A stretch of DNA of 7,107 nucleotides from NCBI GenBank assembly GCA_003242525.1, contig QGUU01000127.1:1-7107 (forward strand), given 5' to 3'. How positions within the stretch are numbered: the stretch's first letter is position 1; every line of letters begins with the position of its first letter. Under the pieces are notes generated by a model. The model ran no database searches, had not been told where the DNA came from, and worked only from the letters and a program-made list of their open reading frames with translations. This DNA comes from Pseudomonadota bacterium (lineage in GTDB: Bacteria > Pseudomonadota > Alphaproteobacteria > Rhizobiales > Rhizobiaceae). The translations under genes were made by a program, and so were the position numbers. Positions 1 to 7,107 of the stretch are shown here, one piece after another.

Positions 1-73
1 AGAAGAATGCCTTCGCCGGATCGGTCATGGTTGCTGCCGCTTCCGGCGCCCGTTCCATTGCCACCACGTTCAT
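1..73 (-). CDS. livF: ABC importer ATP-binding subunit, LivF type (N-terminal fragment, cut by window edge)
   Basis: Only the first 24 codons are visible, so the identity rests on position. The ATG (73-71) overlaps the TGA of the upstream ATPase gene as ATGA, and a G-rich Shine-Dalgarno stretch sits about 8 nt ahead inside the end of that gene. The visible peptide begins MNVVAMERAP and contains a second in-frame ATG at codon 16 (MTDPAKAFF), which looks more like a usual LivF beginning, so the true start could be either. No ATPase motif is inside the window. In HAAT operons of order SBP-H-M-G the next gene is nearly always livF, the second cytoplasmic ATPase that pairs with LivG. The reading frame is seen directly; the function is inferred from operon order. 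Confidence 0.7.
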   Translation of the reverse strand, partial: MNVVAMERAPEAAATMTDPAKAFF

Positions 74-840
74 TGCACGCTCCCCCCCAGATAGGCTTCC
101 TGCACCCGAGGATCTTCCTTGATCTGGTGCGGCAAGCCAGAAGCGATGATGCGCCCCTGCGCAAGCACGGAGATCTTGTCGGCCAGAGAGAACACGACAT
201 GCATGTCGTGTTCGATGATGACCTTCGTCATGCCGCTCGACTTGATCTTCTTCAAAAGATCTATGGTCGTGTTGGTGTCATGTCGGCTCATGCCCGCGGT
301 TGGCTCATCCAGCAAGAGCAGGCGCGGCCGCTGGATCAGGCACATCGCCAATTCCAGCCGGCGCTTGTCACCGCGCGACAGTGCGCCCGAGGTGTCGAAG
401 CGCCGGGCGTAGAGGCCGACATCCTGGAGCAACTGTTCGGCCTCCTCGCGGATTTCGGTCTCCGAATCCACGCTGCGAAGCATGTTGACCCGAAAGGCGC
501 CGTCCCTGCGGGCGAATGCAGGCGCCATGACATTGTGGAGCACCGGCAGATCAACGAAGATTTCCGGCGTCTGGAACACGCGCGAGATGCCCAGCTGGTT
601 GATTTCGTGTGGAGCTTTGCCCGTCAGAACCTGGCCATCAAAGACCACCGCTCCGCTGGAGGGAGGAATGCGGCCGATGATGACGTTCAGCAGCGTCGAC
701 TTGCCCGCGCCATTCGGGCCGATGATGGCATGCGTCTTCCCTTCCTCGATCTGGAGATCGATGTCGGAGAGCGCGCGCAGGCCCCCGAAATTCTTGTGCA
801 CGTCGGCTGCATGAAGGATGATGTTAGGCTGCGTTGCCAT
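70..840 (-). CDS. livG: HAAT-family ABC importer ATP-binding subunit, LivG type
   Basis: This is a 256-residue cytoplasmic ATPase, the usual LivG length, which would power the importer with the LivF-type partner encoded next. Visible motifs are Walker A GPNGAGKST (41-49), Q-loop Q90 in VFQTPEIF, ABC signature LSRGD (154-158), Walker B RLLLLDEP (173-180) and switch histidine H211 in IIEHDMHVVF. The LivG-type helical region 96-140 is present. The signature departs from LSGGQ, having Arg and Asp at its third and fifth positions. The start ATG follows a GGAAA Shine-Dalgarno in the 11-nt gap after the livM-type stop, and the stop overlaps the next start as ATGA. The substrate cannot be read from this subunit; UrtD-like (urea/short amide) ATPases are close relatives, so liv names the family, not amino-acid transport. 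Confidence 0.93.
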   Translation of the reverse strand: MATQPNIILHAADVHKNFGGLRALSDIDLQIEEGKTHAIIGPNGAGKSTLLNVIIGRIPPSSGAVVFDGQVLTGKAPHEINQLGISRVFQTPEIFVDLPVLHNVMAPAFARRDGAFRVNMLRSVDSETEIREEAEQLLQDVGLYARRFDTSGALSRGDKRRLELAMCLIQRPRLLLLDEPTAGMSRHDTNTTIDLLKKIKSSGMTKVIIEHDMHVVFSLADKISVLAQGRIIASGLPHQIKEDPRVQEAYLGGSVQ

Positions 841-851
841 GATGCTTTTCC

Positions 852-1994
852 CTATTCCGCCGGATGGGGATGAGGTTGCGCGCCCGAGCCTTTCAGGCGT
901 CCGGTCAGCCAGCGTGCAAGGCGCTGGCTTCCCTCAACAAGGCCGCCCGGCAGGAACACTACGATCAGGACGAAGAGCAGGCCCAGCGTCAGATGCCATC
1001 CTTCGCCGACGAATTTGGAGAGAACGGCCACAACCACCTGCTCCAGGCCGTCTGGCAGGAAGGACAGGAAGCTGTGCAGTATGTTGGTGTTGATCGCAGA
1101 GAAGATGTTCTCGAAATATTTGATGAGCCATGCGCCGACTACCGGGCCGTACAGCGTACCCACCCCGCCCAGGATCGTCATGAGCACGACGTTGCCTGAC
1201 TCGGTCCATTTCATTCTCTCGGCACCGGCCAAGGGATCGGTGACGGAAAGCAGCGCACCGGCCAGTCCGGCAAACATTCCCGAGATGACGAATGCGGCAA
1301 GCGTGTAAGGCTTGGTGTTGAAGCCGGTATAGCTCATCCGGGTCTGGTTCGACTTGATGCCGCGCAGCGCCAGTCCGAAGGGCGACCTGAAGATCAGCTG
1401 TGAAATATAGAACGAGACGATGAGCAGTACCGCGCAGATGTAGAAGCCGGTATAGCCGCTTATGGATCCTCCCAACAGCGTCGGATGCGGCAAGCCGTCC
1501 GTCGAAGCGCTGGCGCCAAACAATGCGTCGAGCACGCGTGGGTCGTTCTTGGCCAGCAGGAGGCCGGTCTCGCCATTCGTGATGGGCGTAAGCACGGAAT
1601 ATGCCAGGCTGTAGCACATCTGCGCAAAGGCAAGCGTCAGGATCGAGAAGTAGATTCCTGTCCGCCTCAGGCAGAAATACCCAATCACCAGCGCAAAGAT
1701 GCCGGTCACAACCACGGCAAGCGCCATCGCCGGAAGGATGTCCATGGTGAGCAGCTTGAACGACCACACGGTGGTGTACGAGCCCACTCCGAGGAAGGCC
1801 GCATGGCCGAAGCTCAGATAGCCGGTCAGGCCGAACAGAATGTTGAACCCGATCGCGAAGATCGCATAGATCGCAAATTTCTGCATGAGCCCTGGATATG
1901 CCGCGCCGAAAGGCGCGAGCCATATCGGCATGGTCAGCACTATGGCCGCGAATATTGCCAGCTTGCTCAAGTCGGTTCGAGACAATGAGACCAT
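852..1994 (-). CDS. livM: HAAT-family ABC importer permease, LivM type
   Basis: This 380-residue polytopic inner-membrane protein is the LivM-type half of the transport channel. It has about eight to ten hydrophobic segments. The family-typical N-terminal block around residues 48-72 ([19 protein letters not shown]) is present, as is the late cytoplasmic coupling block at 267-288 ([21 protein letters not shown]), which contacts the ATPases. A long loop of about 40 residues (138-178) lies in the middle and a His/Pro-rich hydrophilic tail closes the protein. The ATG lies 4 nt after the livH-type stop, with GGAG inside the end of that gene as a possible ribosome site, which implies translational coupling. 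The family call is secure. Nothing in the permease fixes the substrate. Confidence 0.95.
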
Positions 1995-1998
1995 GGGA

Positions 1999-3027
1999 TC
2001 AGTTCTCCATGATTCCGCGACGGCCCATCAGTCCGCGAGGCCGCACAAGAAGAATGACAACCGCGACGAGGTAGATGACTACCTGGTCGATGCCCGGCAC
2101 GAGCGACTTGACCTCCGTCATTGAAGCGAATGATTGCAGAATCCCCAGCAGGAAGCCTGCGGCCACGGCTCCGCCCAGCGAGCCCATTCCGCCGACAACG
2201 ACCACGACGAAGCTGAGCACCAGGAAGTCCATCCCCAACTGGTAGTTGGGGGCCAGCAGCGGCGTGTACATGACGCCCGCAACGCCAGCCACTACGGCGG
2301 CCAGCCCGAAGACGATCGTGAACCGCCTGTCGATGTCGATGCCGAGGACACCGACCGTTTCACGATCGGCCATACCGGCCCGGACGACCATTCCGAACGT
2401 CGTGAACTGAAGAAACGCAAAGACCCCGCCGATGACGACCGCGGAGAAGGCCAGATAGACGATCCGCCACCATGGATAGGTCAGGGTATGCGGATCCATT
2501 CCGAGCCAAACCCCGATATCGGCGGCGCTGCGGAGGTCGGAAGGGATCGGCTGCGGGATCGGATTGGCTCCGAAAAAGCTCTTGACGATCTCCTGGAGCA
2601 CAATGGCCAGGCCAAAGGTGACCAGGATCTGCTCGGCATGCGAACGCTTGTAGAAGTGCTTGATGATCCCGCGTTCCATCGCGATGCCGATCACAAGCAT
2701 GGCGGGTACCGCAAGAAGAATGGAAATCGGAACGGAGTAGTCTACGAGAACGGCACCGAAATCGCCGAACCAGTTCTGGACGAGCGGCGTGCGCACCTCC
2801 ACCGGCGTACCCCAAGGAGAAAGATTCTCCGGATCGATCGTCACCGTTTCGAGGGTGATCAGGTAACGGAATGTGACGGCACAGAAGCAGCCCAGCATGA
2901 AAAGGGCGCCATGCGCGAAGTTCACAACGCCGAGGGTACCGAATACGAGCGTCAGACCGAGGGCAATGAGCGCGTATGCGCCGCCCTTGTCCAGCCCATT
3001 GAGCAACTGAGCCAGAAACGCGTTCAT
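1999..3027 (-). CDS. livH: HAAT-family ABC importer permease, LivH type
   Basis: This 342-residue inner-membrane permease pairs with the LivM-type protein. The N-terminus is typical of Liv[22 protein letters not shown] at about 10-30, followed by [14 protein letters not shown] (33-46). The coupling-loop region [20 protein letters not shown] is at 272-291 and the C-terminus reads [13 protein letters not shown]. It is longer than classic E. coli LivH because of a hydrophilic loop at about 58-95 that includes [11 protein letters not shown], plus an extended loop at about 155-185. The start ATG has AAGGAAG upstream at good spacing. It lies 69 nt beyond the binding-protein gene, the largest gap in the operon, and that gap holds a strong hairpin. 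Confidence 0.95.
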
Positions 3028-3096: not shown

Positions 3097-4440
3097 TCAG
3101 CACTGATTGGGCTCGTACGGACCCAGCTCTCCGCCAAAGATGGACGGGTCGTAGGTGACCTTGTCCCGCGGCGTCTTACCGATCACGTTGAGCACATCGA
3201 ACTTGCTCGACGGATTCTCGTTGCCGCGAACCACAAGCACCTCCTTGAAGCACTGGTGGTCGCTATCGCGATAAAGCGTCGGCCCGTTTCCGGCTCCGTC
3301 AAACTCAAATCCTTCCAGCGCCTTGATGACCTCGGGCGGATAGAAGGTCCCTGCCCTTTCCACCGCGTCGGCATACAGGATCGCCTGGACATAGCCGGTG
3401 TGGGACGACTGGGAGGGCGGAGCGCCATATTCTTCGCCGTAGGACTTTGTGAACGCCTTCGTTCCTTCGTCCTCAAGCGCCCAGTGCCAGTTTGACGTGC
3501 CGATGATGCCTTTCACCGCATCGCCGGCGCCGACAGCCATCAGCTCCGAGAACATCGGAACGATGATCTCGAAGTTCTTGCCATTGGCCTGGCGGTCGCG
3601 CAGTCCGAACTGGGTCGCCTGCGGCAGCGAGTTCACCATGTCGTGGCCATAGTGATTGAGAATGAGCACGTCGGCGCCGGAATTGAGAACAGGCGTGAGA
3701 TATTGCGAGTAGTCTCCCAGGCCGAGGGGAGTGCGCACGGTGGCAACGGTTTCCCATCCCAGCGCCTCGGTCGCTGCCTTGATGGATTCTTCCTGCGTCC
3801 AGCCCCAGGTGTAGTCGGCAGTGAGGTGGTAGGCCCGGCGCTCAGTGCCGTATTCCTGGGCGAGGATGGGGGCGATCGCCACGCCGGACTGGTAAGCGTT
3901 GAAGAAATGCCTGAAACCGTAGCGGCGCTTGTCCTTGCCTGTCGTGTCGTTGGAATGCGTAAGGCCGGACATATAGATGACGCCCATTTCCTGGCAGAGA
4001 CTCTGCTGGGCGATAGCCTCGGCCGACGTAACACAGCCACTGACCATGATGGCGCCGTCGCGCTCGATCATGCGCCGCGCGCCATCCCGGGCAACGTCGG
4101 TGTTCGTCTGCGTGTCACCGGTCACGTATTCGACCTTGCGCCCCAGAAGGCCATTCCCCTTCAGGGCAACGGGCTTGAGGGTGTTCAGGATACCGCCGTC
4201 GCCCTCGCCGTTAATATGCTTGACCGCAAGCTGGTAGCCCTTGAGCTGGTCCAGTCCCTCCTCGGTGTAAGAGCCGGTCTGCGGCACGTTGAAACCGAAT
4301 ACCACACGCCCCTTGGACGGGTCGTTGCAGAATTCCTCCGCCCATGCGCCCTTGGTAAAAACATAGGGCGCTCCCAACGTCACGAGCCCCGCCCCTGCAC
4401 CCTTGAGGATGCCGCGTCTGGTCATGCGGAATTTGGTCAT
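3097..4440 (-). CDS. HAAT-family ABC transporter substrate-binding protein, Tat-type signal
   Basis: This 447-residue periplasmic binding protein of the Peripla_BP_6/LivK-like type captures the substrate for the importer encoded downstream. The start is set at 4440 because GGAGG (4454-4450) lies 9 nt ahead of it; a longer reading frame from 4497 would bypass this site. The N-terminus carries a twin-arginine signal, TRRGILKG, with probable cleavage after AWA (residue 34). The mature part starts with a beta strand and ligand-loop pattern (RVVFGFNVPQTGSY, 45-58). It then has GDTQTN (108-113), SGLTHSNDTTGKD (158-170), ADYTWGWTQEE (208-218) and the DHQCF motif (394-398) typical of HAAT proteins. 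Five cysteines are present (38, 136, 149, 397, 447). The sequence resembles a binding protein I recall being widespread in alphaproteobacteria beside short-chain fatty-acyl regulators. Ligand unknown; amino acids, short amides and small carboxylates are all possible. Confidence 0.93.
   Translation of the reverse strand: MTKFRMTRRGILKGAGAGLVTLGAPYVFTKGAWAEEFCNDPSKGRVVFGFNVPQTGSYTEEGLDQLKGYQLAVKHINGEGDGGILNTLKPVALKGNGLLGRKVEYVTGDTQTNTDVARDGARRMIERDGAIMVSGCVTSAEAIAQQSLCQEMGVIYMSGLTHSNDTTGKDKRRYGFRHFFNAYQSGVAIAPILAQEYGTERRAYHLTADYTWGWTQEESIKAATEALGWETVATVRTPLGLGDYSQYLTPVLNSGADVLILNHYGHDMVNSLPQATQFGLRDRQANGKNFEIIVPMFSELMAVGAGDAVKGIIGTSNWHWALEDEGTKAFTKSYGEEYGAPPSQSSHTGYVQAILYADAVERAGTFYPPEVIKALEGFEFDGAGNGPTLYRDSDHQCFKEVLVVRGNENPSSKFDVLNVIGKTPRDKVTYDPSIFGGELGPYEPNQC
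4339..4440 (-). other. Twin-arginine signal peptide of the binding protein
   Basis: Residues 1-34 have the Tat layout: a basic n-region, the motif T-R-R-G-I-L-K at 7-13, a weakly hydrophobic h-region rich in Gly and Ala, and AWA before the likely cleavage point. A lysine (30) near the end of the h-region would act as a Sec-avoidance residue. The motif differs from S-R-R-x-F-L-K at two places (T for S, I for F), so Sec export is possible, but the Arg pair and the polar h-region favour Tat. Confidence 0.65.
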
Positions 4441-4510: not shown

Positions 4511-4525
4511 CTTTGTAATATATAT

Positions 4526-4555
4526 TTTTTTTTGTAATTTTCCTTTTTTTTGTAA
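4526..4555 (+). repeat. 12-bp exact direct repeat TTTTTTTTGTAA, 18-bp period
   Basis: TTTTTTTTGTAA occurs exactly at 4526-4537 and again at 4544-4555, a start-to-start distance of 18 bp. Both copies include a TTTGTAA-like motif preceded by a T-tract. The copies sit in the middle of the divergent promoter, so a pair of protein dimers could bind them side by side. Confidence 0.8.
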
Positions 4556-4580
4556 AGCAACTATTGTAAATGTTTGTACA

Positions 4581-4591: not shown

Positions 4592-6145
4592 ATGCGCGCG
4601 CCAATCGGCATCCAGATCAGACGCAAACGGTTGGCGCTCGGCCTCTCCCAGGCCGCGTTGGCGAAGGCTGTCGGCATCTCGGCCACCTATCTCAATCTCA
4701 TCGAGAACAACAAAAGAGCGATCGGCGGAAAGCTGCTCGTACGGATTAGCGAACGGCTGGGGCTGGATCTGGACCAATTGTCGGGCGTCACCGAATCCCG
4801 TTCCATCCAGGCCATCGAGGAACTTCTTGCCGACCCGGCAATGGCAGGGATCGAGATGGAGCCGGCGGCCATTCGGGATTTTGTGGCACGCTTTCCAGAA
4901 GCAGGGCTGGCTCTTACCCGGCTTTACCGGCTGTATCTGGACGCGAGCGCAAGCATCGACGTCTATAGCCACAGGCTTCGCTCGGATCCGCTTCTGTCTC
5001 AGATGCTGCATCAGGTCCTCAACAGGATTTCCGCCATTCGGTCCGGGGCTGAGATCCTCGACAAGGTGCCGGATCTCACGGATGCCGAGCAGAAGCGCTT
5101 CAGCGCCACGATCAGCCGGGAGAGCGAGGAACTGACAAGCACCGTAAGGAGCCTCGTCGACTACTTCGACAGAACCGCCTCGCTCGAACGACCCATTTCG
5201 CCGATGGCCAACCTGGACGAGGCCATCATCGCCCACCGAAATCATTTCCCCGGCCTCGAAGCGGCCGCCGATGAACTCAGGGCCGAACTGGCCGCCACCA
5301 CCGTTCTGGAGGAAAAGGAACTCGAGCAGGCTCTATGGCGACGATTCGGCATTCGCTCGGTGCGACTGCCGGCAGGTTCCAACATTGTCGGTCAGTACCG
5401 CTACGAGCCGGACGAAGGCAGGCTCCTGTTTCGTGGGTCGGCGGCCCGCTCAACCCGAATCTTCCAGATGGCGCGGATATACGCCAGCAAGGCGGCTGCG
5501 CAAACGATCGAAGCGACAGTCGAGGAACTCAGGTTCAACTCGGAAGAGGCGCGCCGGATCGCCAGCAAGGCCCTCTCCTCCTACGTCGCTGGCGCCATGA
5601 TGATGCCCTATGAACGCTTCCTGGCGGACGCGGAGGCATTGCGTTACGACATCGAGCTGTTGGCCCATGTGCATGGAGCCAGCTTCGAGCAGGCGGCCCA
5701 CCGTCTGGTAACTCTCCGGCGGAAGGGCGCAGAAGGGGTTCCTTTCGGTTTCCTGCGCAGCGACCGGGCCGGGCGCTTGACCAAGCGATTTCCCCTGCCC
5801 GGGCTAGCCTTGCCGCTTTCCGGACATGGCTGCGTTCTATGGCCAATCTTCCGGGCTTTCGGCAGCACCGATCTTGTCAGGCAGGTTGCGGAGTTTCCCG
5901 GCGGGGAGCGCTTCCTTCTGATTGCAAAGGCCGTTTCCAAGCAAATGCCGAGCTACCGCGAGGAGGCACCGGCCTATTCGATCATGCTGGCATGCGACCT
6001 GGTGCATGCCGACCGCACCGTCTATTCGGATGGCCTCGACCTATCACAACGGCCGGTCGCGGTCGGGGCATCGTGTCTCCTGTGCCCGCGGCAGGAATGC
6101 GGCCATCGTCAGGAGGTCCGCTCCACCTCGACGTGGCTGCAGTGA
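4592..6145 (+). CDS. XRE-family regulator of the short-chain fatty-acyl (RamB/PrpR/ScfR-like) type with an embedded HisKA-like segment
   Basis: This 517-residue cytoplasmic transcription factor probably controls the divergent importer and itself. An XRE helix-turn-helix spans about 7-62 (GLSQAALAKAVGISATYLNLIE). Residues 132-195 look like a histidine-kinase dimerisation/phosphoacceptor domain with H140 in the phosphoacceptor position. Residues 240-345 match the ImmA/IrrE-like region of this family but show no HExxH zinc-protease motif. Residues 350-505 form the C-terminal domain (DUF2083-like) with FEQAAHRLVTL, GVPFGFLRSDRAG and a terminal cysteine motif C495-x2-C498-x4-C503. Family members such as mycobacterial PrpR and corynebacterial RamB control acetate/propionate genes, respond to acyl-CoA, and in PrpR carry an Fe-S cluster. 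The protein is somewhat longer than the roughly 470 residues I recall as usual. The 3' end overlaps the convergent kinase by 37 bp. The family call is firm; effector and targets are inferred. Confidence 0.88.
   Translation: MRAPIGIQIRRKRLALGLSQAALAKAVGISATYLNLIENNKRAIGGKLLVRISERLGLDLDQLSGVTESRSIQAIEELLADPAMAGIEMEPAAIRDFVARFPEAGLALTRLYRLYLDASASIDVYSHRLRSDPLLSQMLHQVLNRISAIRSGAEILDKVPDLTDAEQKRFSATISRESEELTSTVRSLVDYFDRTASLERPISPMANLDEAIIAHRNHFPGLEAAADELRAELAATTVLEEKELEQALWRRFGIRSVRLPAGSNIVGQYRYEPDEGRLLFRGSAARSTRIFQMARIYASKAAAQTIEATVEELRFNSEEARRIASKALSSYVAGAMMMPYERFLADAEALRYDIELLAHVHGASFEQAAHRLVTLRRKGAEGVPFGFLRSDRAGRLTKRFPLPGLALPLSGHGCVLWPIFRAFGSTDLVRQVAEFPGGERFLLIAKAVSKQMPSYREEAPAYSIMLACDLVHADRTVYSDGLDLSQRPVAVGASCLLCPRQECGHRQEVRSTSTWLQ
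4985..5176 (+). other. HisKA/DHp-like segment inside the regulator (residues 132-195)
   Basis: Aligned without gaps to kinase positions 6822-6631, this segment shares 22 of 64 residues by my count. They include the LSQ before the histidine, H140, the IRS eight to ten residues after it, EIL in helix 1, DL in the turn, and RF, TI, ES and LT in helix 2. The kinase's HEIRTP box reads HQVLNR here, so the catalytic acid after His and the proline kink are lost while the His stays. No ATP-binding domain follows. It may serve as a dimerisation element, a phosphoacceptor, or a docking surface for the neighbouring kinase. Confidence 0.6.
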
Positions 6146-7107
6146 GGCTGAAGCGGCAGGGTTACCTGAAAGCAGGCTCCCGTCAAAGTACCGTTGACCA
6201 GTTCGAGCTGGCCGCCAAGCCTTTCCACGATCCGGTGGCTGATATTCAACCCCAGGCCAAGACCAACGCCCGCCCCCGAGTGGGTGGAAGTTCCTGCGCG
6301 CACGAACTTGTCGAAAATGCTTTCCCTGTAGGGCTCGGGAATGCCGCTGCCATTGTCCGAGATTTCGACCACATATTTATCCTTCTCCAGACGCGACGTG
6401 ACGTGAACCTGCGGATCAGGCGAATCATTGTGCGAGATGGCATTGGCGATAATGTTGATGAAGACCTGACTGAGGCGCCCTGAATCAGCAAGAACCCAGG
6501 CGTTCCCTGCCCTAGGCCCGATCTCGATCGATACGGTGCGGCGCCGGGCAAGCGCCTCGCAAACGGTGATGGCGCGGTCGAGCACCGCCTCGCCATCGGT
6601 CAGCGTATTCTCCCAGTTTCTCTCTCCATGCTCCAGCGCGCTCAGATCCAGGATTTCCTCGATAAGTCGGGTCAGGCGCACGCTCTCGTTATGTATGGTG
6701 GAGATGAATCGCTCGGTCTGTTCCGCAGGCAGGTCGCGTTCCGTCATCAGTATTTCCGAGAACGAACGGATCGACGTCATGGGCGTGCGGATCTCGTGGC
6801 TAACCTGCGAGAGGAAGTCGTCCTTCTGGCGGTGCAATTCCTGCAGCTTGGCGTTCGCTTCCTGCAATTGCTGGGCAGTCGTGTGAAGCTCGCGCGATTT
6901 CAGCTCGAGCTCATGGGAATATTCCATCACCTGCTGGGTTTCGTCCGCCATCCGCATCACTTCTTCCAGCGATATGGTATCGCCGGCAACGACGGTCGTG
7001 AGCAGAATATGCGCCGAGGCCGAGCCGATGGAGCCGGCCAGTTCCTTCTCCAGCGTCGCGATGAAATCGGGCGGCACGTCCGCATCCGAATTGGAATGGC
7101 TGTGGAC
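6109..7107 (-). CDS. Sensor histidine kinase, C-terminal part (probable SLC5-STAC-HisKA-HATPase type; start outside window)
   Basis: The frame is open to the window edge; 332 C-terminal residues are visible. A GTG at 7077 is an unlikely start because coding resemblance continues upstream of it. Counting from that codon, 15-48 resemble the STAC region found after the transporter part of CbrA/CrbS-type kinases (GSIGSASAHILLTTVV, then SLEEVMRMADE), and 50-85 is a coiled coil. HisKA is 86-149 with phosphoacceptor H94 in SHEIRTP. The ATP-binding domain has an N-box around N212, G1 box DNGSGIP (241-247), F-box IFDKF (254-258) and G2 box GVGLGLGL (270-277). All catalytic elements look intact. In this kinase type an SLC5 sodium/solute symporter precedes STAC and reports on a transported carboxylate or amino acid; CrbS controls acetate use in Vibrio and Pseudomonas. 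No response regulator is in the window. The kinase call is certain; the SLC5 fusion is inferred from the STAC-like segment. Confidence 0.9.
   Translation of the reverse strand, partial: VHSHSNSDADVPPDFIATLEKELAGSIGSASAHILLTTVVAGDTISLEEVMRMADETQQVMEYSHELELKSRELHTTAQQLQEANAKLQELHRQKDDFLSQVSHEIRTPMTSIRSFSEILMTERDLPAEQTERFISTIHNESVRLTRLIEEILDLSALEHGERNWENTLTDGEAVLDRAITVCEALARRRTVSIEIGPRAGNAWVLADSGRLSQVFINIIANAISHNDSPDPQVHVTSRLEKDKYVVEISDNGSGIPEPYRESIFDKFVRAGTSTHSGAGVGLGLGLNISHRIVERLGGQLELVNGTLTGACFQVTLPLQPHCSHVEVERTS
6820..7036 (-). other. STAC-like segment and signalling coiled coil of the kinase
   Basis: Between the window edge and HisKA there is no PAS, HAMP or GAF signature. Instead a short helical stretch resembles the STAC element of SLC5-linked kinases, followed by a charged heptad-like helix rich in Glu, Gln and Leu (VMEYSHELELKSRELHTTAQ and onward). 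This helix runs straight into HisKA, as expected for a signal transmitted from a membrane part located beyond the window edge. Confidence 0.55.

Follow-up and report, generated by a model that had tools for sequence, protein, structure and literature searches.

The locus described here raises the question of why a DNA-binding regulator of metabolite type should carry the phospho-acceptor domain of a histidine kinase, and with which partner such a domain would engage. It is customary to regard one- and two-component signalling as distinct designs, with phosphoryl flow towards DNA assumed to terminate on an aspartate. The window (the whole stretch of DNA analysed, 7,107 nucleotides of contig QGUU01000127.1 from a Rhizobiaceae assembly, GCA_003242525.1) contains the following features:

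70..840, minus strand: ABC ATPase (UrtD/LivG-like)
852..1994, minus strand: second ABC permease (branched-chain/urea type)
1999..3027, minus strand: ABC permease (branched-chain/urea type)
3097..4440, minus strand: periplasmic substrate-binding protein, divergent from the regulator
4512..4579, no strand assigned: five TTTGTA/TTGTAA-type repeats in the intergenic stretch that separates the divergent genes of transporter and regulator
4592..6145, plus strand: ScfR/PrpR-type regulator, 517 residues (HTH 9–63, HisKA-like DHp 132–195, M78/IrrE-like 251–372, ScfRs C-terminal domain 374–508)
4985..5176, plus strand: DHp (HisKA-like) insert, regulator residues 132–195, placed by alignment and profile comparison
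5009..5011, plus strand: codon of H140, the predicted phospho-acceptor histidine
5021..5023, plus strand: codon of N144 (H+4), where HisKA domains have their Thr/Asn phosphatase residue
5831..5833, plus strand: codon of C414, aligned with a GAF-domain cysteine of PrpR (taken as the [4Fe4S] ligand Cys363)
6074..6100, plus strand: C495-X2-C498-X4-C503, matching the C-X2-C-X4-C cluster motif of PrpR
6109..7107, minus strand: SLC5-type sensor kinase, C-terminal part (HisKA + HATPase)
6631..6822, minus strand: DHp stretch of the kinase, as aligned with the regulator (codon of the phospho-acceptor His at 6796–6798)

The kinase open reading frame is convergent with that of the regulator, overlaps it by 37 bases and is truncated by the contig end at 7107. 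Its N-terminal part lies on contig C497 of the same genome (6337–8208); close to the end of the C497 stretch that was read, the opening 40 bases of the window's reverse complement recur. Just ahead of this N-terminal part sits a receiver-only gene (C497, 5685–6041), the product of which is 71% identical to the receiver of Nitratireductor (locus L030). The kinase orthologue of L030 matches SSF at 23.4 bits (cut-off 22.8), HisKA at 66.3 and HATPase at 66.8; that of L092 has the same three domains, and that of L187 gave no SSF match. The window's genome also encodes a second SLC5-type kinase (C318:3703–6744, an open frame of 1209 residues), possibly CrbS/RpuS-like, with 41% identity to the L030 kinase over residues 8–652. 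Urea was considered as substrate of the ABC transporter and set aside on scores under the NCBIfam cut-offs. Across 96 transporter–regulator intergenic stretches (the window's included) the commonest 8-mer, AATTTACA, is related to the window repeats and occurs in 57, a count inflated by the kinship of the loci and compared with one letter-shuffled set, in which the commonest 8-mer occurs in 6. The TTTGTA/TTGTAA-type (TTTGTAAA-type) repeats are likely operators, through which the regulator would control both itself and the transporter.

A gapless alignment of regulator residues 132–195 with the kinase stretch 6822–6631 (minus strand) was the starting point of the preliminary description, and recounting reproduced it: 22 of 64 positions are identical and H140 falls on kinase H94 (numbered in the 322-residue open reading frame). 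When the letters of the kinase stretch were shuffled 10,000 times, the mean was 5.1 identities and the maximum 15, versus the 22 of the real pair. The Pfam HisKA model (PF00512) matches the window regulator over residues 134–192 (E 0.002, 18.6 bits, cut-off 26.9); three of the four distant orthologues tested pass that cut-off (L187 at 38.8 bits, L188 at 33.8, L189 at 33.2), the fourth, L092, scoring 18.7. Profile–profile comparison returned a probability of 99.6% with 36% identity over 61 columns when all regulators were used, and 98.2% from the closer regulators alone. A search of the window's own genome with the regulator found the neighbour kinase at E 4.6e-5, the sole kinase among four matches below 1e-3, and the L187 regulator reads STHELRTFLTSIRSFSEIL where the window kinase has VSHEIRTPMTSIRSFSEIL, a clear bridge between the regulator and kinase domains.

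Structure prediction was compared with the two-helix hairpin that such a domain would form, the single-chain AlphaFold2 model placing helices at residues 133–158 (bearing H140) and 164–198. With the DHp model alone as query, Foldseek gave no confident match: the top two rows are histidine-kinase chains, at E about 1, and a second structure aligner listed general helical bundles. No HATPase domain was found in the regulator among the 11 Pfam families listed up to E 1. At the level of sequence, we regard homology of the insert to HisKA/DHp domains as clear, the Pfam cut-off being reached only by relatives of the window regulator; the earlier proposal of a real DHp domain, nearest to the family of the neighbour kinase and with a conserved histidine, is borne out.

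The protein that hosts this domain is otherwise a recognizable member of its class. Its HTH, M78-like and ScfRs domains all score above their Pfam cut-offs, a domain content that agrees with its initial identification as an acyl-CoA regulator and places it in the ScfR acyl-CoA type; in a fold search with the full-length regulator, PrpR ranks first. Mycobacterium tuberculosis PrpR aligns to regulator residues 204–506 and weakly to 88–131, that is, on either side of 132–203, which identifies the DHp as an insertion of ~70 residues between a helical N-terminal part and the acyl-CoA half. This insert is missing from PrpR and from 17 distant ScfR relatives (L093–L109), and a regulator paralogue in the window's genome matches residues 6–120 and 191–508 only, with no match to the insert. 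Residues C414 and C495-X2-C498-X4-C503 align with the [4Fe4S] ligands of PrpR, as these are assigned in PMC6765138. The C-terminal half is predicted to be of acyl-CoA/Fe-S type, with candidate cluster cysteines present.

We sought the origin of the insert by comparison with kinases. With the bridging L188 domain as query, the best match outside the regulators was an SLC5-type kinase in all ten genomes searched; in the window's genome that kinase was found at 2.6e-10 and the next kinase at 5.8e-5. In a tree of 57 DHp domains, all 19 regulator domains fall in one clade (support 100/99) among the SLC5-type kinases, set apart (84/87) from 11 of the 17 rows of other kinases. The remaining six “other” rows group among the SLC5 kinases; four come from loci of SLC5-kinase orthologues (L234–L237), and one of the six is identical to an SLC5 row (L172). 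With 90 columns the alignment is short, which leaves the precise branching order uncertain. The simplest reading, which we consider likely, is a single capture of the DHp from the SLC5-type kinase family encoded beside the regulator.

What could act on a captured phospho-acceptor domain is suggested by the genes that accompany it. We examined the best 80 of 129 loci plus 39 further loci, and the usual gene set across them comprises the transporter, the regulator, a receiver-only gene and an SLC5-type kinase. Counts over 100 loci with a readable DHp omit L093–L109 (17 loci, no DHp), L089 (regulator split over two frames) and L164 (13 residues extracted); no pair among these 100 regulators is >99.5% identical, and many are from Devosia. 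Locus L089 itself (10001–11543, a Roseovarius metagenome-assembled genome) matches the regulator in two pieces, the reading of the first frame being broken. A receiver gene is present in 90 of the 100 loci and a kinase in 82. All 97 receiver-only genes (matches of at least 95 bits; frames of 122–149 residues, including a few upstream residues) encode the phospho-acceptor Asp, the Lys and the acidic pocket, and Response_reg was the only Pfam match above its cut-off in the four receivers tested. The preliminary description had envisaged control without a classical response regulator; this part did not hold, a receiver-only response regulator being encoded in those 90 loci and here on contig C497.

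We favor, at about even confidence, a reading in which the probably kinase-derived DHp of the ScfR-type regulator serves as docking site for a kinase-phosphorylated single-domain receiver, which passes its phosphoryl group to H140. In such a scheme the SLC5-type kinase would phosphorylate the receiver, the phosphorylated receiver would dock on the regulator DHp and hand its phosphoryl group to H140, and phosphorylation of H140 would in turn alter DNA binding and hence control of the divergent ABC transporter promoter. The regulator would thereby sum an outside signal, arriving via the kinase, and a predicted inside signal, acyl-CoA, in a single protein.

The preliminary description had pictured a more direct route, with the regulator phosphorylated by the kinase or joined to it in mixed four-helix bundles. 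In the form weighed here, the two DHp domains would pair in such a bundle and the ATPase domain of the kinase would act on H140, or the kinase would be held back by the regulator. We consider this account rather unlikely. It draws on the kinship of the domains, the regulator DHp being closest to the DHp of that very kinase family, and on gene arrangement: the 3′ ends of the two genes overlap in the window, and the kinase adjoins the regulator, with the receiver further out, in 15 of 100 loci. Against this, in 64 of the 100 it is the receiver gene that adjoins the regulator, the kinase lying no more than 6 kb off (a further 4 have the same neighbour and no kinase in view). Four genomes (L036/L156, L158, L174 and L180) have two receiver genes, one near the regulator and the other beside a kinase located elsewhere; in L158 the kinase and second receiver lie beyond the transporter, and in L174 the first receiver lies 3 kb from the regulator. 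Of 121 aligned positions the L036/L156 receivers have 69 in common; for the L158 pair the figure is 42 of 115. Retention of a dedicated receiver by the regulator speaks for a partnership between the two, and direct kinase–regulator bundles would account less well for receiver genes kept near the regulator.

The residues that the domain keeps bear on the same choice. In HisKA kinases, according to PMC3510030, an acidic residue (E/D) at H+1 is required only for kinase activity and T/N at H+4 only for phosphatase activity. Kinases read without a motif filter carry H-E-x-R-T-P in 86 of 88 cases (86 of 86 readable, the other two having a gap there); an earlier reading of 90 kinases had used a pattern requiring E, R/K, T/N and P around the histidine, such that invariance there was by construction. 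The window regulator instead reads H-Q-V-L-N, with the H+4 Asn present and the H+1 acid and H+5 Pro missing. Over the 100 loci, H+1 is Q in 59 and E in only 14, with eight other residues in the rest, and the eight commonest residues at H+5, which cover 97 of the 100 regulators, exclude Pro. Direct phosphorylation by the kinase ATPase domain is disfavored by this scarcity of the acid. The 120 close orthologues (P0001 and P0004–P0122, of 867 found) present a milder picture, with E at H+1 in 61, Q in 32, P in 15, L in 10, and S and D in one each; E or Q thus occupies the position in 93 of 120, compatible with a kinase-like role. Across regulators the H+1 acid is relaxed and not wholly lost.

The histidine and H+4 are treated differently. 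All 120 close orthologues have H at position 140, as do 88 of the 100 loci (F in 8, Q in 2, L and Y in one each); over these loci H+4 is S in 51, T in 29, N in 18, A in one and D in one; N/T/S together make up 98 of 100, and T/N proper 47. Among 57 thinned H-bearing regulators, all 57 have N/S/T at H+4, R/K at H+10 and E at H+14, while S at H+11 and I at H+15 are each found in 56, the kinase columns of that comparison again being invariant by construction. The earlier judgement that the box is degenerate, and that neither autokinase nor phosphatase chemistry is to be expected, is half borne out: the regulators do not retain the H+1 acid or the H+5 Pro, but they do largely retain the histidine and an N/T/S at H+4. 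A DHp that keeps His and H+4 and relaxes H+1 would fit a receiver partner better than a target of the kinase ATPase domain.

Retention of H+4 also invites a reading in which H140 and N144 act as a phosphate sink or phosphatase, clearing the phosphorylated receiver so that the acyl-CoA state tunes kinase signalling, with little effect on DNA binding. This would agree with the near-constancy of both positions, T/N at H+4 being the phosphatase residue of HisKA domains (PMC3510030). We consider it unlikely: Ser, which is not a proven phosphatase residue, occupies H+4 in about half of the loci, and a receiver that lacks an output domain would be left with its own target unaccounted for.

Since DHp domains dimerise, the insert might alternatively be a dimerisation scaffold only, with H140 in a structural role. 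The domain does persist through five losses of H140 on the tree: the group of L190–L193 and L195, L177, a Terasakiella-like group (L084, L085, L087, L088), L163 and L063. A histidine invariant in every close orthologue beside variable H+1 and H+5 positions is difficult to reconcile with a plain scaffold, as is a receiver gene in nine-tenths of the loci, and we hold this explanation to be quite improbable.

The five losses also weigh against receiver docking with phosphotransfer to H140, the reading that we prefer. In the first three loss groups (L190–L193/L195, L177 and the Terasakiella-like loci) the receiver and kinase are not beside the regulator. Loss of the kinase was considered as the cause and rejected: a same-family kinase was found in all eight genomes searched (L084, L085, L087, L088, L177, L195, L190 and L193), and is adjacent in L163 and L063. 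The Terasakiella-like kinases have 41–42% identity, with no receiver match beside them. In L163 (Q) and L063 (L), H140 is gone though receiver and kinase adjoin, which indicates that H140 is not indispensable everywhere; in some lineages phosphotransfer may count for less than docking. Locus L163 (regulator 8569–10089, receiver 10226–10573, kinase 10858–13578) has H140 replaced by Q and H+4 by A, with the receiver Asp and kinase His intact, and offers a natural test case for docking without phosphotransfer. Conversely, L040, L043 and L182 keep H140 with receiver and kinase genes elsewhere. Overall, 81 of the 83 loci in which the regulator is linked to a receiver or kinase keep H140, compared with 7 of the other 17 (L158 counts here among loci with a receiver more than 1.5 kb distant, even though a weaker receiver match adjoins its regulator). 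We do not take this association as statistical proof, as it is not significant on correction for kinship (linkage assigned by hand, 12 unlinked rows), which left 2–3 of 5 independent pairs in agreement and 0 in disagreement, with a median sign-test p of 0.25.

The extent of the gene set was examined through its most distant members. Loci L187–L189 and L194 have regulator, receiver and kinase, and no match to the transporter's binding protein or first permease was found in the stretches read, such that these three genes have the appearance of a core, to which the transporter may have been added later. The 17 insert-less relatives (L093–L109) likewise gave no transporter match in the stretches covered, some of their contigs being short, and three (L101, L106 and L108) have weak kinase and receiver matches. 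Counting the window's genome, an order-level search (E up to 1e-60) found matches in 24 of 297 genomes and a class-level search (E up to 1e-100) in 29 of 385. At E up to 1e-60 the regulator is absent from the 7 same-genus and 5 same-family genomes listed and present in more distant families of the order; this pattern could reflect patchy inheritance, transfer, or an assembly that is misplaced or mixed.

Sequence comparison shows a kinase-related DHp domain in the regulator, a conserved histidine and H+4, relaxed kinase-only residues, and a receiver-only gene kept with the set; the evidence is strong for the domain, its kinship and the partner genes, and phosphotransfer to H140 is predicted. 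More tentatively, and with confidence short of even, we suggest the wider proposition that these genes encode a phosphorelay ending on a histidine in a DNA-binding regulator of acyl-CoA/Fe-S type, which arose once by copying a kinase phospho-acceptor domain and spread across the Alphaproteobacteria. If true, the one- and two-component designs would meet in a single protein by way of a kinase-derived His domain and a co-encoded free receiver. Clear predictions follow from the residues that are retained (H and H+4) and those that are relaxed (the ones needed only by kinases). Single-domain receivers, whose purpose is often unknown, gain a testable target from the gene order, and the arrangement offers a possible explanation of gene control by SLC5-type kinases that lack an output regulator. 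In full-text literature searches, from which most subscription papers were excluded, no title or opening of an abstract among the papers listed (20 of 364 in one case) describes a DHp domain in an ScfR/XRE regulator. In PMC10370305, Pden_1785 of Paracoccus denitrificans, a member of the ScfR network, is noted to lie with two-component genes and is left aside.

Comparison with known systems places the locus between several of them. The ScfR/IsaR regulators (M. tuberculosis PrpR, RamB, PccR) have in common with the window regulator the HTH, the M78/GAF-like middle and the ScfRs C-terminal domains, and PrpR differs in having no DHp at 132–203. On the kinase side, the SLC5/STAC kinases (CrbS/R, RpuS/R, CbrA/B) combine SSF, HisKA and HATPase as does the L030 orthologue. 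Partners of the CrbR and RpuR type are described as LuxR-type output regulators in PMC9100948. Here, unlike in CrbS/R and RpuS/R, the receiver lacks an output domain, and it is the DHp protein that carries the DNA-binding part.

The sporulation relay provides the other point of comparison. Spo0B has an H-x-x-x-N pattern, passes its phosphoryl group to Spo0A and is not known to be itself a DNA-binding regulator. The Spo0B Pfam model is not among the matches listed for the window regulator. As described in PMC11210211, the relay runs from kinase to single-domain receiver (Spo0F) to a DHp-like phosphotransfer step (Spo0B). The order that we propose (kinase, single-domain receiver, DHp-like step) would resemble that section of the KinA–Spo0F–Spo0B relay, and would differ in that the Spo0B-like step is built into a DNA-binding protein, the window DHp sitting inside a regulator of metabolite type.
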